From Oscillatoria sp. CS-180 (GTDB lineage Bacteria; Cyanobacteriota; Cyanobacteriia; Phormidesmidales; Phormidesmidaceae): a stretch of DNA of 64,000 bases. How positions within the stretch are numbered: position 1 is the first letter of the stretch; each line of letters opens with the position of its first letter. The stretch lies in assembly GCF_028330965.1 (NCBI RefSeq), contig NZ_JAQMUB010000088.1:62001-126000 (forward strand). Direction: 5' to 3'. Below the pieces are notes generated by a model that ran no database searches, was not told where the DNA came from, and saw nothing but the letters and a program-made list of their open reading frames with translations. This document shows positions 1,145 to 59,716 of the stretch, piece after piece. The position numbers and the translations under genes are program-made.

Positions 1145-1448
1145 TCCATTCAATTTTTGGCGTTGCTTATCAGCGGGACAATTGTCTCCCCTTCACTGAG
1201 AAGTCATGACTTGGCGTTTCGAAGACCAGGGCTTTATAGCTGTCACCCGTTCCGTTAGGACAAGGCGGCGAGCCATTGGGCTATCCCGCTTCAGCAACAC
1301 TCGATTGTTGGTCATCAGTTCTACTTTGTCCCTGAAACTGACAAACTTTTCCCAAAACTTATCTATAAGATCCTGACCGTGCCGCTGTGGTTACCTAAAC
1401 TGAATTGGAATATGTTCAAACTTCAACAGGCATAACCGGAAAACTGCT
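1145..1448. other. intergenic region before pgi
   Basis: No gene is seen here. The stretch carries a degraded copy of the ~104-bp dispersed repeat (about 1235-1290) and the presumed pgi promoter. An AT-rich zone at 1340-1430 precedes the pgi start, but no convincing -35/-10 pair stands out. Confidence 0.5.
1235..1290 (+). repeat. ~104-bp dispersed repeat, degraded copy A
   Basis: The block begins with TATAGC and continues with CCGTTCCGTTAGGACAAGGC and GGCGAGCCATTGGGCTAT, matching the left half of the repeat seen in full at 11409-11512. The right half is too diverged to align with confidence, and the GCACCC/GGGTGC hairpin is lost. It lies between the DUF2993 gene and pgi. Confidence 0.7.
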
Positions 1449-4183: not shown

Positions 4184-4558
4184 GAGACTGGCATTATACG
4201 TAGATATACTGCATTCCATTATTGCGCGTAGGTGGCCGTCCGTTATAGCGCCGGAACGATAGCGTTAGCCATAAGCCTGTGACCCAGTAGCTCCCAGATA
4301 TTAAGAGCGTCCCCAGATAGTTTGCCGTCTGTCCTCTTACACCTAATGACAGTTACAACAGAACTCAGATCGGCACCCTAAACCCTGTCTGTCCCTATCT
4401 CTCTGCCGTTAGACTAATGATAAATATTGTGATCCCCATCTAACGGAGTAACGCTTGAGAAAGGCGCTAAAGAATGACGCAACGCGGTAACATGACGGAG
4501 ATGCTTCCTTAGATAAACGCCGCTTAGGATCAACTCAAAACGAATTGCGTAGGAAATC
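4184..4558. other. divergent intergenic region before psb27
   Basis: The gap between the divergent membrane protein gene and psb27 must hold both promoters. No gene is visible. No strong promoter match or repeat was found by eye. Confidence 0.4.
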
Positions 4559-7806: not shown

Positions 7807-8688
7807 ATGACTTCAAACCTTGTAGCGGATCAGCAACGTATCGACAAGACGACTCGATGGGATCACTTTCATCGGGTCGCTCTGGTTGTGCAGTATGTTG
7901 GCACCCGCTTTCATGGCTGGCAACGTCAGCCCAAGGAACGTACGGTACAGGGTGATATTGAGCAGGCTATTCAGTCTGTTTTGGACAAACCCATAACTCT
8001 ATGTGGCGCTGGGCGTACGGATACTGGCGTTCATGCAGCGGCTCAGGTGGCACACTTTCAAGCTCCTACACTGATCCCAGCTCATCGATGGGCTGGGATC
8101 CTGAATAGCCGTTTGCCTGAGGATATTTTAATTCGGGCGTCTGCTCAGGTCCCTGACGATTGGCATGCACAGTTCTCTGCTCGGTGGCGGCGGTATCGCT
8201 ACACCCTGTACACGGACCCGGTGCCCAATCTCTTCCTTCGTCCCTTTTCGTGGCACTACTACTATCAACCTTTAAGCGAGACCCTAATCCAGTCAGCTTT
8301 AGATGCGCTGGTAGGTTACCACGATCTAACAGCATTTCAGCGGGCGGGTTCTAAGCGATCCCATGCTTGGGTTGATGTGCAGTGTGCTGAGTGCCATCGT
8401 CAAGACACGGTAGTAGCGGTTGAGCTACAGGCGAATGGCTTCTTATACGGCATGGTCCGTTTACTGATGGGGATTCTCGTTCAGGTCGGTCGCGGCCTGA
8501 TGAGCGTGGAAGAATTCACTCACCTGTGGCAGAACCGTCAGCGAGATCGTGTCAAATATGCGGCTCCAGCAAGTGGGCTTTGCTTACTCAGAGTGGGCTA
8601 TGACTATTTCCCCTTCCACCCTAATGTTTGGTACGATACACAACCGCACTTTTGCCTTCCTCAAGCCTCCTCTGCGATCGCCGTTTGA
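7807..8688 (+). CDS. truA: tRNA pseudouridine(38-40) synthase
   Basis: TruA isomerises uridines 38-40 in the anticodon arm of tRNAs. The catalytic aspartate lies in the signature GAGRTDTGVHA near residue 66, preceded by the family N-terminus LVVQYVGTRFHGWQRQPKE. Later motifs include FLRPFSWHYYY and FLYGMVRLLMGILVQVGRG. The ATG at 7807 gives 293 residues; a TTG two codons upstream is possible. A roughly 25-residue tail past the usual end is unremarkable. truA between rplQ and rplM is the standard cyanobacterial order. Confidence 0.95.
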   Translation: MTSNLVADQQRIDKTTRWDHFHRVALVVQYVGTRFHGWQRQPKERTVQGDIEQAIQSVLDKPITLCGAGRTDTGVHAAAQVAHFQAPTLIPAHRWAGILNSRLPEDILIRASAQVPDDWHAQFSARWRRYRYTLYTDPVPNLFLRPFSWHYYYQPLSETLIQSALDALVGYHDLTAFQRAGSKRSHAWVDVQCAECHRQDTVVAVELQANGFLYGMVRLLMGILVQVGRGLMSVEEFTHLWQNRQRDRVKYAAPASGLCLLRVGYDYFPFHPNVWYDTQPHFCLPQASSAIAV

Positions 8689-8742
8689 TACCGCTCCCCT
8701 AAATCCCGTCAAAGATTCTCTCGATAACACACCCACAAAACC

Positions 8743-9198
8743 ATGACTAAGACGTACATTCCCCCTGTTAACGACATAGACCGTAAATGGTATGTCGTCG
8801 ATGCAGCAGACCAGCGTCTCGGACGCCTAGCCACTGAAATTGCTACCATTCTGCGTGGCAAAAACAAACCAACCTTTACCCCTAACATGGACACGGGGGA
8901 CTTTGTAATTGTTGTCAACGCCGAGAAAGTTGTTGTCACCGGAAATAAGACTGATCAGAAGCTATATCGTCGCCATTCTGGTCGTCCTGGTGGTATGAAA
9001 ACGGAAACCTTTGCCCAGTTACAAGCTCGGATTCCCGAACGGATTATTGAGAAGGCAGTCAAGGGAATGCTGCCTAAGAACGCGCTGGGACGGAAGTTAT
9101 TTACTAAGTTAAAAGTCTATGCTGGGCCAGAGCATCCTCATGCCGCTCAGCAACCTGAAACCCTAACGATTCAAACGATTGCTGGAGAGAAAGCCTAA
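8743..9198 (+). CDS. rplM: 50S ribosomal protein L13
   Basis: L13 is an early-assembling large-subunit protein. The 151-residue product begins [20 protein letters not shown] and shows [19 protein letters not shown], the HSGRPGGMK loop near residue 78 and [17 protein letters not shown] near residue 104, all diagnostic. Its TAA shares one base with the ATG of rpsI, so the two are translationally coupled as in most bacteria. Confidence 0.98.
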
Positions 9199-11093: not shown

Positions 11094-11408
11094 AGTCCTT
11101 CATAGGTCTTTTGTAAATAGTTCAAACTAGGCAAGATCCGCTTGTGCGGTCTCGCCCTGATAGTGCTTTCCACTGATTTTGTAAGGAACCAGTGATAGTA
11201 CCGTCGCAATTGCTGCATCCTTCGTGGCACCCTCATAGTGAATAAAGGGGCAGACTTATAGCCCTATGCAGCTTGGTTAAGTACATCTCAGTGCCTTAAG
11301 GGAGCAGGGCATAGGAAATGGGGTTTGCTTGACTCAAATGCATGCCGCCATATCAGAAGATCTGCTAGTAACAATGCCCACTTTATATTGGGTTTATGCA
11401 TCAGCGCC

Positions 11409-11512
11409 TATAGCCGTCACCAGTTCCGTGAGGACAAGACGGCGAGCCATCTGGCGATGCGCTAAGCACCCGGATGCTAATGGGTGCACAAGCCTAGATG
11501 GCTAAAGCTATA
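11409..11512 (+). repeat. ~104-bp dispersed repeat, full copy B
   Basis: The element starts TATAGCCGTCACC and ends GGCTAAAGCTATA, giving TATAGC/GCTATA ends. Inside, AGCCATCT pairs with AGATGGCT and the centre GCACCC pairs with GGGTGC, so the right half can fold into a nested hairpin. The left half carries the conserved block TTCCGTGAGGACAAGACGG. It is the reference copy for the family. Confidence 0.85.
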
Positions 11513-11532
11513 TCTTGCAGACGTCCTGATAA

Positions 11533-11595
11533 GGTTCCGTGAGGACAAGACAGCGAGCTATTGGGCTATGTACTAGAGGCCTAGATAGCTAACAA
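11533..11595 (+). repeat. ~104-bp dispersed repeat, partial copy C
   Basis: GGTTCCGTGAGGACAAGACA and GCGAGCTATTGGGCTATG match the left half of copy B; CCTAGATAGCTAA matches its right end. The central GCACCC/GGGTGC hairpin is deleted. It abuts the promoter region of the DUF4114 gene. Confidence 0.7.
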
Positions 11596-11625
11596 CGCGA
11601 TAGTTCTGCGTCCCATCGTTTTTTA

Positions 11626-13935
11626 ATGGCGTGCGCTCTACCTAACCGTGCTATTCAAAACATTAGGAGTTGTCCGCCCGTGGTTTACGAATCCGTGCCT
11701 GCTGGGGCTGAGTTTATGCTGTCTGAATCAATCATCAGCGACCCCATTTCTCTAGCAGATACCGTAGAAAAACAGCCGGGTTTAGCCTTTCTCTCATCTC
11801 AACCAGAAGCCATGATGCTTCCTATTGATGAGGACGACTTTTCACCTGACGCAATTTTGACTGACCCGGTCCAAGATTTTGTTTCAGAGACTCCCGAAGC
11901 TACCAATAGCACAACAGATTCTCTGCTCAACTGGACTATCCTTGAAGCAGCTACTGGAGTCTGGTCAGAGGTGCAGAGCATTTTAGACACCTTTCAGCGA
12001 TCGCCAGACAGTCACGACGCATTGGCGCTGATTTTCAACGACTTCGATACTATCGCTCAGGCAAAAGCACTGATGCAGCAGATTGTTGAGGGCGATCGCT
12101 TACCTAACATTCGCGTACTACCCAAATCAGATTTACCGGCCTGGGGTGCTTATGCCGCTCAAACGGACACTATCTTCCTAGCTGAAGAACTGGGTCAACA
12201 GCGAGAGCAGCTAGTGCGAGTCTTGTTGGAAGAACTGGGACACTTTATTGATGCTCACGTGAATGAGAAAGATGCTCCAGGGGATGAGGGGGCTTTATTT
12301 GCAGCCCAGGTTATGGATGACGCTTTAAGTAGTCATGCGATCGCCGCCCTTCAGGCCGAAGACGACACCGCTACTCTGACCTTAGAGAATCAAACTCTAC
12401 TGATCGAAAAGTCGGATGAGGGACAGGGTATTTTCACGGTGGCGTCCGATGGACAAATCACTGTGGAGTTTCTAGCCGACGGAGGGGGCTACAAAGGACA
12501 ATTGGCCGTTTTTGACCTAGCGGGAATGGAAGGCTTGGCTCCAGGTTCCCCCGCTTTCATCAAGGAGGCCGCTCGTCGAGCTTTAACAAACTCGACAGCA
12601 GGCTATGTCGTCATTGATGACCGGACCGAAAAAGCAACCTTAAGCGGAGAGTTAGGAGAGCGCGATCGCAATTCAGGTCAACCCGTTGGCAGTAAAACCG
12701 TTCAGTTTTTACCCGGAACCCACGTCGCCGTAATGCTCGTTCCCCATGGCACTGTTGAGGCTGTGTTAGAAAACGCAACCGTTGCTGGCAAGCTCAGACC
12801 GCTTTTCTCGTTAAATAGCGCTAATCCTGAAGGACAAACCCACATCGGTCGCATTCGATCTGGCGTTTTCGCTATGGAAGATTTGCGACTGGACGATCGC
12901 TCAGATAAAGATTTCAACGATGTCATCTTCCAGCTCACGGGAGCAGCCGACCGAATCGCAGCAGTTACAGATTTGATGGAGAGTCACCACACCTGGTTGA
13001 ATACACCTCTCGGCCAACAGTTATTGCAAATGCCCATCGATTTGGGCACCTCTCCACTACCTGATACGACCCCTAACCCTGCGCCGGAAGAGCCTGGTGG
13101 GGAGACGGAATCTCCAAACAATCCTGGAGAAGGTGCACCTGACAATAGCACTGATTCTAATGACACTCCTGGGAATGAATCGGACAATTCACCCGATTCC
13201 TCTGACGGTTCTAACTCACCCGACGAGCCATCAGATCCTGGTGATTCACCCTCCCAGACTGCGGATTTTAGAGTTGCGATCGCAGACGAGGTTGCTAAAT
13301 TCAACAGCGGCAATAGCCAAGCTGATATTACAGCGACGGGGGCAGCAAGCGTTACATTTGGAACGCAAACCATTTATGCTGGGACCAATCAGGTCTCTAG
13401 CAATAACCAAAACCCTATCCTTGCTAGCTTTGACAGCGCTAATCCAGATAACAACTGGGTGAGAACAGACTACGAAAGAACAGGAGCAGACGGTCGAGGC
13501 TTAGGCTTAGCTTGGAACGGAGAAAGTCTGTATGGTGTTTTTAGCGTAGACGGCACTCAGGGCAGCCCGTCTGAAGACTTCCGTCGTGCTGCTAACGACG
13601 CTGAACAGTCGTGGTTACGCAGCTATGGCGCAGGTGGCGGTCCGAAAGTTGCTGTCATCGGACGCATTGATCCCAAGAACGGAACGTTACTCAACGCAGC
13701 TTACTTATCCGCTGTCCTTGAGAGCGGCAACAGTAACTCCTTGAGCGTCACCAACCTCACCGTGAAGGAAAACGGTAACTTAGTCATTGAGGCTCAGTCG
13801 TTCTTCTCTCCTAGACGGCCTGACGGTAGGGCCATGACCCAAACAACGTCCGGTGGTTCACCTTTTGCTTACACCGTCGAAATTACCCCCGATCTAAAAC
13901 GAGTCATCAACACATCAGCAGAAGGATGGATTTAA
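11626..13935 (+). CDS. DUF4114-containing surface-type protein
   Basis: The 769-residue acidic protein is modular. Residues 100-260 match the N-terminal domain of large cyanobacterial calcium-binding adhesins and include VLLEELGHFIDAHVNEKDAP (about 200-218), a metalloprotease-like helix that lacks the second histidine of HExxH. Residues 365-437 form a DUF4114 domain (FAMEDLRLDDRSDKDFNDVI). A disordered Pro/Asp/Ser/Asn linker spans about 472-550. The C-terminal 215 residues form a beta-rich domain (GRGLGLAWNGESLYGVFS; FFSPRRPDGRAMTQTTSG). No classical signal peptide is seen; related proteins are exported by type I systems. The start may be ATG 11626 or Met31. Role inferred: surface or matrix protein. 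Confidence 0.65.
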   Translation: MACALPNRAIQNIRSCPPVVYESVPAGAEFMLSESIISDPISLADTVEKQPGLAFLSSQPEAMMLPIDEDDFSPDAILTDPVQDFVSETPEATNSTTDSLLNWTILEAATGVWSEVQSILDTFQRSPDSHDALALIFNDFDTIAQAKALMQQIVEGDRLPNIRVLPKSDLPAWGAYAAQTDTIFLAEELGQQREQLVRVLLEELGHFIDAHVNEKDAPGDEGALFAAQVMDDALSSHAIAALQAEDDTATLTLENQTLLIEKSDEGQGIFTVASDGQITVEFLADGGGYKGQLAVFDLAGMEGLAPGSPAFIKEAARRALTNSTAGYVVIDDRTEKATLSGELGERDRNSGQPVGSKTVQFLPGTHVAVMLVPHGTVEAVLENATVAGKLRPLFSLNSANPEGQTHIGRIRSGVFAMEDLRLDDRSDKDFNDVIFQLTGAADRIAAVTDLMESHHTWLNTPLGQQLLQMPIDLGTSPLPDTTPNPAPEEPGGETESPNNPGEGAPDNSTDSNDTPGNESDNSPDSSDGSNSPDEPSDPGDSPSQTADFRVAIADEVAKFNSGNSQADITATGAASVTFGTQTIYAGTNQVSSNNQNPILASFDSANPDNNWVRTDYERTGADGRGLGLAWNGESLYGVFSVDGTQGSPSEDFRRAANDAEQSWLRSYGAGGGPKVAVIGRIDPKNGTLLNAAYLSAVLESGNSNSLSVTNLTVKENGNLVIEAQSFFSPRRPDGRAMTQTTSGGSPFAYTVEITPDLKRVINTSAEGWI

Positions 13936-37725: not shown

Positions 37726-38041
37726 GACGGGAGTGGGATATTCAGTAGGTCTATGCAGGGATAGCGATGATTGGGTAGACCCTGAAAGCGTTAATTTGAC
37801 GGACAGCAGCGTTGGCGAGATTGATTACAGGTGAATAGACATTTTGCTGAGTTTCAAATGCTCAGGTTTATGGACTGAGCATATAGCTCTAGCCATCTAA
37901 GGTTTTGCACCAAGGCACATCCGAGTGCTTAGCGCATAGCGAGAGGGCTAGCCGTCTTGTCCTAACGGAACTGGCGAAGGCTATATTTGCTCGCATACAC
38001 GCTGCCGTAGTCAATAAGCAGGAAACACAAAGAAGAGATCT
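37726..38041. other. intra-operon gap with repeat between pixI and pixJ
   Basis: This is the widest gap in the operon. A full copy of the dispersed repeat occupies 37882-37985 and no gene is seen. Confidence 0.6.
37882..37985 (-). repeat. ~104-bp dispersed repeat, full copy D
   Basis: Read on the minus strand it begins TATAGCCTTCGCCAGTTCCG, continues with TTAGGACAAGACGG, carries GCACTCGGATG as the central element and ends TTAGATGGCTAGAGCTATA. It lies inside a transcription unit, oriented with the genes. Confidence 0.85.
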
Positions 38042-42352: not shown

Positions 42353-42596
42353 GAGATATCACTGTTTTAGGTATTGTCTGCTTACCTTCAGAACGAGGAA
42401 TACGAGGAGAAATTTTGGGCACAGGCCAACAATTTCCGTTATTGATAAAATCGTGCAGCAGTCGCGCAGAAATCGTAGAACAGGAGTTGATTTGGGATGC
42501 AGTGGTGGTGTTTTAGGGCGGTCTTGTCTTAGTCTTTGTCCCTCAACTTGCAGAATCCTCGTGGATTTTTCCTAGCCAATGCTAAAAGCTGTCATG

Positions 42597-42695
42597 GTCG
42601 TCGCTAGTTCCGTTAGGACAAGACGGCGAGCCATCTGGCCTATGCTAAGCACCCGGATGCTATTGGGAATGCACAAACCTAGATGGCTATAGCTA
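42597..42695 (+). repeat. ~104-bp dispersed repeat, copy E
   Basis: GCTAGTTCCGTTAGGACAAG, GGCGAGCCATCTGGCCTATG, AAGCACCCGGATGCTATTGG and CTAGATGGCTATAGCTAT match copy B block by block. The left end is altered and does not show a clean TATAGC terminus. Confidence 0.85.
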
Positions 42696-42813
42696 TGAAT
42701 GCAAAGTTACCAATCTGCCCGATACAACAGTTGTGGCTGGTGACTTGGGCACCCTCATGGATGCAGTTCTCATCAAAAGTCACCGGCCAAGCGACGTAGA
42801 GGAAATTCATTGC

Positions 42814-58990: not shown

Positions 58991-59608
58991 TTACTCCTGA
59001 TCGCGGAGACGATACACCGGTAAGGAAAGCCCCCACATAATGGCTGCTAGTCGTAGACTGACGATCGTTCCCATGCCTACCAGCATAGAGCCTGAGTTAG
59101 GTATTCCCATTTTCTGCAAAGCCAAGTAGAGCGCGATGCCGGCGATCGCTGCTGTTGCGTAGATATTACCCCGCTTGAGGATGATCGGAATTTCCACCAG
59201 CAACACGTCTCGTATTAAGCCCCCTGCTACACCAGAACAAGCCCCCATCAAAATAACGATGAGACCATGTAAGCGAGCAGCTTCTGCAATTTGTGCGCCG
59301 CTGAGGCTGAACAGTGCTAGCCCACAGGCATCCGCAATCAGCAGCGATCGCTGAGGAGGCTTGAAGAAGGCCGTATAAATCACTGTTAACAGTCCAGCAC
59401 TAATGGCCACGATAAGATAGTCTGGCTGTTGCACCCAAAAAACGGGGGAACGGTCCAGTAGTACGTCCCGCAGGGTTCCTCCTCCTAAAGCCGTCACGAC
59501 AGCAATCACCATCACACCCAATAGATCCAAGTGCTTACGGCCAGCCGCCAGTGCACCACTGACCGCAAAAACAGCAACACCAATCATGTCCAAAGTGTAG
59601 AGAATCAT
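58991..59608 (-). CDS. TRIC-type (UPF0126) cation channel protein
   Basis: A 205-residue membrane protein with about seven helices in two repeats, the trimeric intracellular cation channel fold. Repeat 1 reads VFAVSGALAAGRKHLDLLG with GGGTLRDVLL; repeat 2 has FSLSGAQIAEAARLHGLIVI with GGLIRDVLLVEIPIIL. The paired GG..RD motifs are the family hallmark. I take ATG 59608 (MILYTLDMIG). An in-frame ATG at 59626 lies inside repeat copy F, so the longer start would be partly encoded by the repeat. The gene is divergent from threonine aldolase. Confidence 0.85.
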   Translation of the reverse strand: MILYTLDMIGVAVFAVSGALAAGRKHLDLLGVMVIAVVTALGGGTLRDVLLDRSPVFWVQQPDYLIVAISAGLLTVIYTAFFKPPQRSLLIADACGLALFSLSGAQIAEAARLHGLIVILMGACSGVAGGLIRDVLLVEIPIILKRGNIYATAAIAGIALYLALQKMGIPNSGSMLVGMGTIVSLRLAAIMWGLSLPVYRLRDQE

Positions 59609-59611
59609 AGC

Positions 59612-59716
59612 TATAGCTTTAGCCATCTAAGCGTGTGTAACCCAATAGCATCCGGGTGCTTAGCCCATAGTCTAATGGCTCGTCGTTTTGTCCGAACAGA
59701 GCTGGCAATGGCTATA
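59612..59716 (-). repeat. ~104-bp dispersed repeat, full copy F
   Basis: Read on the minus strand: TATAGCCATTGCCAGCTCTG at the start, GCACCCGGATGCTATTGGG as the central element, and CTTAGATGGCTAAAGCTATA at the end. It fills most of the 175-base gap between two divergent genes. Confidence 0.85.

Follow-up and report, generated by a model that had tools for sequence, protein, structure and literature searches.

A ~104-bp intergenic repeat of Oscillatoria sp. CS-180 is very probably a MITE moved by an IS630-family transposase

The sequence at 11409..11512 of a 64-kb stretch of the Oscillatoria sp. CS-180 genome (hereafter the window, meaning the whole stretch analysed) recurs elsewhere in the same stretch, and the question is what kind of element it represents and how its copies were placed. 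The initial annotation left a choice between a TA-target MITE of IS630/mariner type and a structured REP-like element. Small dispersed repeats of cyanobacteria, very small mobile repeats, were reportedly treated by Elhai in 2008. Our analysis suggests that the repeat is very probably a MITE mobilised by a Tc1/mariner-like transposase of the IS630 family with matching ends. It is a new family, MITEs of the IS630 type being well known, and it is set beside ISY100, RUP and Nezha by their descriptions.

A covariance model (R1) built from 33 copies of the CS-180 genome, including the four full-length ones of the window, revealed seven copies in the window, of which four are full-length, one is truncated and two are decayed. 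The same seven copies were found by nhmmer and by a second model, R2, which added a weak reverse-strand match to the 37882 copy. All six copies listed by the initial annotation were thus real, being recovered by R1, R2 and nhmmer. The copies are as follows.

1235..1291, forward strand: truncated copy, left half (R1 39.9 bits, E 6e-8)
4258..4357, reverse strand: decayed copy, missed by the initial annotation (R1 30.6 bits, E 2e-5; nhmmer E 2e-7)
11409..11512, forward strand: full-length copy, top-scoring in its genome (R1 130.2 bits, E 2.6e-32; R2 E 8.7e-30)
11516..11599, forward strand: decayed second copy adjoining the 11409 copy, with an nhmmer core at 11534-11586 (R1 25.3 bits, E 5e-4; nhmmer E 2e-6)
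37882..37985, reverse strand: full-length copy (R1 101.9 bits)
42593..42697, forward strand: full-length copy (R1 111.5 bits)
59612..59716, reverse strand: full-length copy (R1 100.1 bits)

The conserved unit starts with TATAGC and ends with GCTATA; at both borders conservation drops, target preference aside. The TATAGC ends, the left block and the AGCCATCT/AGATGGCT stem described earlier as common features are present; the inner GCACCC/GGGTGC hairpin is perfect in a subset of the copies only. The parts of the 11409 copy are given below.

11409..11435, forward strand: left terminal inverted repeat of 27 nt, beginning TATAGCCGTC
11413..11443, forward strand: hairpin 1, GCCGTC / GACGGC (fold; covariation between genomes)
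11445..11503, forward strand: hairpin 2, outer stem AGCCATCT / AGATGGCT with a variable inner part (fold; covariation between genomes)
11486..11512, forward strand: right terminal inverted repeat, reading TATAGCTTTAGCCATCTAGG onwards on the other strand

The left terminus reads TATAGCNGTCGCCA-N6-TTAGGAC. Hairpin 1 (GCCGTC..GACGGC) encloses a small inner stem, and hairpin 2 is longer and imperfect with AGCCATCT/AGATGGCT at its foot. Compared with shuffled sequence the 11409 copy folds with a z score of -3.39 and the three other full-length copies of the window with -1.30 to -2.27; single copies vary in fold and some adopt other folds. Copies of the relative G021 have the same layout, reading GCAGTC..GACTGC and GCCACTTTGC..GCAAAGTGGC. 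The GC content of 51 matches lies between 45 and 59%. At ~104 bp the element is too short for a transposase gene, and the earlier remark that no transposase is nearby was confirmed for ten ORFs of the window, mostly neighbours of the copies, none of which was a transposase by Pfam scan.

One copy of the window overlaps an ORF. The right end of the 59612 copy covers the first 15 bases, counted from the longest start, of the ORF 58991-59626 on the reverse strand. This right end, ATGGCTAAAGCTATA (59612-59626), gives an in-frame ATG upstream of the ORF, which is glycine-transporter-like and has a further ATG just outside the MITE copy.

The repeat is abundant in its genome (G000; 6.5 Mb in 102 contigs). 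A total of 214 nhmmer hits (E<=1e-3), 156 of them spanning at least 90 model positions, were found in 2,050,734 bases, many stretches of which had been picked for containing known copies. The same bases reversed gave no hit, and the matches thus did not fall to chance. With R1, all 150 candidates scored (the best 150 of 2565) were matches, which gives at least 150 copies. The contig of the window (C31) held 26 hits in 264 kb in a run leaving out a 2-kb gap and the last 12.6 kb, which extrapolates to ~640 copies per genome; the first 240 kb of contig C75 held 13, or ~350 per genome; and pooling of the two runs gives ~500. Exact matches to the pattern TATAGCNNTNGCCA number 139 in the genome, compared with four for the reversed pattern. 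Copies being found nowhere else in the genome, named beforehand as an outcome that would speak against a repeat family, is contradicted by these hundreds of copies. The MITE explains an abundant intergenic sequence of this genome, by extrapolation slightly less than 1% of the DNA.

The location between genes, claimed for all copies of the window, holds for most copies and not for every one: 48 of 51 copies in 463 kb, part of which was chosen for holding copies, were intergenic by a crude ORF call, that is, mostly outside ORFs of at least 100 aa, compared with 18% of random windows; the other three were not. Among the 48 intergenic copies, those in gaps between tandem genes showed no bias in orientation (19 one way and 15 the other), and the rest lay between convergent genes (seven), between divergent genes (six) or at an edge (one).

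Analysis of the sequence around the copies revealed a preferred target. Among the 52 copies that carry TA at each end, the flanks give the logo AGN-TA-NCT (A52 at position -3, G46 at -2, C42 at +2 and T62 at +3), a consensus palindrome centred on TA; in single copies among these 52, complementarity of the two flanks was not clearly above that of shuffled flanks except at the first position. Among 55 bounded copies of 71, no signal was found for a duplication of 1 to 15 bases outside TATA..TATA, and any duplication therefore lies within the terminal TA.

Empty sites bear on this point, and two of them involve other repeat families of the same genome. Family C is MITE-like, ~100 bp long, with ends beginning TATAGCGGCATGCA, and one joined-flank query matched it at 35 places. 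It has TATAGC termini in common with the MITE; its inner ends and IS630 partner differ. Its ends resemble the IS630 element L224:1397-2433 of the same genome, and thus it may have a partner there. Family B is ~240 bp long and begins TAGTGCAGCGTCAA, an end resembling those of the IS630 elements L279 and L296; its inner ends and IS630 partners also differ from those of the MITE. Copies of these families are the following.

Family C: window 11256-11355, reverse strand
Family C: L108 17687-17789
Family C: L111 8807-8917
Family B: L096 13617-13857
Family B: L110 14165-14395
Family B: L097 6959-7298

The locus L110 also carries two ~150-bp stretches (8649-8814 and 12825-12980) for which genus relatives have numerous matches, most of them of 71-80% identity; the second stretch matches at 11 places in G001.

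A search with the joined flanks of 142 bounded copies gave four copies with a match across the junction. The match of the 11409 copy was its own surroundings and not an empty site, and the copy at L205:3008 has TATA in common with the left end of a family C copy. The copy at L168:602 is nested in a family C repeat whose empty copies read GAGATG-TA-CTT in 21 of 35 cases, with GA in nine and other bases in five; the filled site, GAGATG-TA-[TAGC..GCGA]-TA-CTTC, represents an exact TA duplication. The copy at L097:7270 is nested in family B, where the empty sequence is GTGAG-TC-AAT in five of six copies and the sixth is gapped; here, at the filled site, the left side reads TA and the right side TC, so that there is no exact TA duplication. 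The TA evidence expected of such a MITE was thus found at one of the two informative empty sites and not at the other. In 97 copies the right-most A is conserved at 80%, compared with 90% for the A in the TA at the left end, a difference not predicted by a plain duplication. Because of the TC at L097:7270 and this lower conservation, a strict TA duplication is disfavoured. Nine of these 97 well-bounded copies end in TC instead of the usual TA, followed by AAT in six of the nine, and such copies may mark a second target preference. Comparison of one 20-kb stretch holding four copies with five genomes of genus relatives (best 40 candidates per genome) gave longer matches of 65-76% identity, none of which spans a copy.

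The same sites bear on whether the repeat is instead a single-strand DNA element of the IS200/IS605 or REP/RAYT type, that is, one moved by a Y1 transposase, with hairpins near the ends and insertion 3' of TATA. Elements of the IS200/IS605 type have no terminal inverted repeats, insert 3' of a fixed short target and make no duplication. The two end-proximal hairpins, which raised the idea of an IS605-like insertion, together with TATA at both ends and the lack of a duplication outside TATA..TATA in the 55 bounded copies, fit that type. Insertion 3' of TATA was rejected, since TATA is missing from the empty sites of both informative nested copies; furthermore, the target logo forms a palindrome centred on TA, the MITE has inverted repeats at its ends in common with an IS630 element, and a conserved GTAG or CGTC tag is absent. 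We regard this type as extremely unlikely. REPs are palindromes of 20-40 bp with a conserved GTAG or CGTC tag at one end (PMC3733652). The present element is ~104 bp long, has TATAGC at both ends and lacks the tag, as CGTC occurs inside a stem and reads AGTC in other genomes; the REP-like option of the initial annotation is therefore not upheld.

A candidate partner for the MITE was found in a relative (G020). The IS630 element L324:1220-2176 is 957 bp long and has the ends TATAGCCGTCGCCACTCTCATTAGGAC and TATAGCAGTCGCCATATTAGTTAGGAC. Its OrfA matches HTH_Tnp_IS630 at 5.8e-13 and its OrfB matches DDE_3 at 5.7e-41, OrfB also scoring 150.9 bits with the NCBIfam IS630 model (cut-off 100). The two frames overlap where the coding strand has a run of ten A, which may point to frameshifting. 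A second copy, L325, is 91% identical, lies near a contig end and lacks the first 77 bases. The ends of L324 carry TATAGC(C/A)GTCGCCA-N6-TTAGGAC, and the consensus left end of the MITE agrees with them at 23 and 22 of 27 positions, compared with 21 of 27 between the two L324 ends themselves. The consensus right end agrees weakly (14 and 17 of 27); the right end of the MITE in G021 agrees at 21 and 20 of 27.

Twelve ends of six other TATAGC-ended IS630 elements served as controls. Over 24 nt, the left end from CS-180 scored 20 and 19 with L324 compared with 10-15 for the controls, its right end 13 and 16 compared with 9-15, and the G021 right end 18 and 17 compared with 12-15. The L324 pair came from a search of 22 relatives with the TATAGCNNTNGCCA pattern, among the matches listed, and 11 positions per L324 end therefore match by construction. 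A diverged 957-bp homologue (OrfA 62% and OrfB 61% identical over the aligned parts) occurs in G012, which carries the MITE, and its ends read TATAGCTATAACCA-N6-TTAGGAC and TATGGCAGTAGCCA-N6-GCAGGAC. A pair of ends with IS-like spacing in G003 was set aside, since one end belongs to a MITE copy.

The genome of the best partner, G020, gave no MITE match with R2 (best 62 of 1403 candidates, stricter filters), and in the copy-rich G021 the sole IS630 hit was a fragment. The CS-180 genome has six IS630 hits, for which ends differ or none were found, and for none of which the inner end of the MITE was found; one of the six, L224, resembles the partner transposase at E<=1e-5, with 33% identity to OrfB. 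Exact matches to the end in this genome yielded no partner among the ~100 of 139 listed, and none of 25 inverted-end pairs listed from 2.05 Mb of it, taken as a list and not inspected singly, was convincing. Among 76 IS630 loci of this genome and its relatives, several elements are TATAGC-ended and none has the inner end sequence of the MITE, in a scan where the ends of the diverged G012 element, known from its protein, fell below the threshold. We infer that the partner was lost from the CS-180 genome or was not assembled there, and that a transposase lineage of the L324 type would move the MITE in trans, as judged from the sequence of its ends. The initial proposal of a TA-target MITE of IS630/mariner type is therefore supported by the IS630 ends in the relative, by the AGN-TA-NCT logo, by one TA duplication and by the hundreds of copies. 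The MITE now has a candidate partner IS, itself open to testing.

Matches to R2 were found in 42 of 63 genomes of the order, that of CS-180 included, with the best 62 candidates scored per genome under stricter filters; by database labels, all 42 genomes belong to one family. The number of matches per genome ranged from at least 62 in G000, G021 and G070, through 51 in G012 (which also has 26 R1 hits), down to one. A DNA search of BLAST sensitivity gave matches in the CS-180 genome and in five of 38 relatives, and at the same sensitivity fifteen genomes of other families gave none. A pattern scan of genome contigs revealed a single contig, of the MAG 'Cyanobacteria bacterium isolate casp40-mb.69', which contains a G021 locus. 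A plasmid collection had no match to one consensus.

The fold of the repeat allows a different account, namely that it is a structured RNA or cis-regulatory element (terminator, mRNA stabiliser or small RNA) kept for a function in the host and repeated by chance. Besides the intergenic location and the strong fold of the 11409 copy (z -3.39), covariation between genomes speaks for it. An alignment of 49 copies from eight genomes was analysed, comprising 13 copies from CS-180 and 36 of the 43 read in relatives; the seven left out were short, long or aberrant. In this alignment 83.7% of the cells pair, compared with 28-38% when the partners were slid; cells with a double change number 110 compared with 52.2 (sd 5.9) in shuffles, a value reached by none of 500, and pairs with a double change number 20 compared with 15.2, a value reached by five of 500. 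The size of this effect is not a probability, because the copies of the relatives were found mostly by a model using part of the tested structure, the structure was drawn from one alignment row and related rows inflate the covariation counts.

Within the CS-180 genome the result is different. Compensated double changes among 147 near-full-length copies number 61 compared with 58.3 (sd 6.7) in shuffles, which is no excess, and paired columns are not significantly spared (divergence 0.151 compared with 0.176 in unpaired columns, p 0.40). This lack of compensation within the genome speaks against most sites having kept a function as RNA. There is also no preferred orientation relative to genes, and Rfam gave no match in the window at the gathering score; in five loci that hold copies it gave four weak matches, all of them off the elements. 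We consider a retained RNA or regulatory function very unlikely as an account of the family, while individual copies could have been co-opted by the host. The mean divergence of the 147 copies from the consensus is 16.2%, and the median identity to the consensus (0.848) equals that to the nearest other copy (0.848), a star-like decay. The pattern within the genome resembles a burst that was followed by decay, with no selection on the fold to be seen. From the two sets of results together, it seems that active master copies retain the structure and that copies lose it once inserted. Judged by covariation alone the repeat would look like a functional RNA, as covariation is strong between genomes, yet there is none within one, and RNA-gene scans based on covariation should expect such MITEs.

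What the hairpins do in a MITE is a separate matter. Possibly they are a by-product, quasi-palindromes perfected by template switching in replication and not needed for transposition. The G021 copy L033:7-112 has a long palindrome without mismatch at a place where the remaining G021 copies read have imperfect ones, an outcome that template switching would give, and the pneumococcal RUP, with IS630-like ends, is also tightly folded (PMC3049150). The two-hairpin layout of 102-107 bp, however, recurs with different stem sequences throughout the 49 copies of eight genomes, and some weaker R2 matches in other genomes are longer relatives of ~126-130 bp; both observations count against a by-product. 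We know of no need for folded internal DNA in IS630-type transposition. That the hairpins are part of the transposition signal, marking a structure-dependent MITE lineage with a layout of inverted ends, hairpin 1 and hairpin 2, appears rather doubtful; were it so, this fixed layout would have been kept across several genera of one cyanobacterial family by compensatory change in active copies, with inserted ones free to decay.

For the MITE with an IS630-type partner, the following course of events is proposed. An IS630-family transposase would bind the 27-nt termini, which read TATAGCNGTCGCCA-N6-TTAGGAC at the left, and the MITE would be excised and pasted at TA dinucleotides, with AGN-TA-NCT preferred and TA usually duplicated; by analogy with ISY100, insertion would be of the cut-and-paste kind. 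Amplification to some hundreds of copies, mostly in intergenic DNA, would have followed, and the copies would since have diverged by ~16% from the consensus with no sign of being kept for structure.

The family was not found in the literature on cyanobacterial MITEs, IS630 and dispersed repeats, as covered outside ISfinder, subscription journals and supplements. No paper giving AGGACAAGAC and TATAGC for cyanobacteria was found, and the literature on TATAGC and IS630 contained, by title, none on cyanobacteria. The available parts of PMC3733652, PMC3049150, PMC2170065, PMC10969869, PMC3542288 and PMC3852290 do not describe it.

Comparison with known systems shows likenesses of several kinds. Nezha, named also in PMC3733652, is a MITE of cyanobacteria for which mobilisation by ISNpu3-like elements has been proposed (as cited in PMC3049150); judged by the descriptions of these citing papers, the likeness is that of a cyanobacterial MITE with a proposed IS partner. 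RUP of Streptococcus pneumoniae is 107 bp long, is present in 110 copies in a single genome, has ends like those of IS630-Spn1 and is tightly folded (PMC3049150). Compared by description and not by sequence, RUP belongs to another host and is AT-rich (27.5% GC), whereas the MITE has 45-59% GC; the MITE has some hundreds of copies, and its matching IS was found in relatives only. ISY100 (ISTcSa), which belongs to the IS630 family and comes from Synechocystis, uses TA as its target; of 39 products, 34 carried a TA duplication and the other five were imperfect (PMC2170065). Unlike ISY100, the MITE lacks a transposase gene, and the coding sequence of its partner is divided between two overlapping frames. 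The likeness to ISY100/IS630/Tc1/mariner elements is one of domains and target, the MITE ends (TATAGCNGTCGCCA-N6-TTAGGAC) not having been aligned to those of ISY100, and it consists of the IS630 HTH and DDE_3 domains of the partner, the TA target and the known occurrence of imperfect products.
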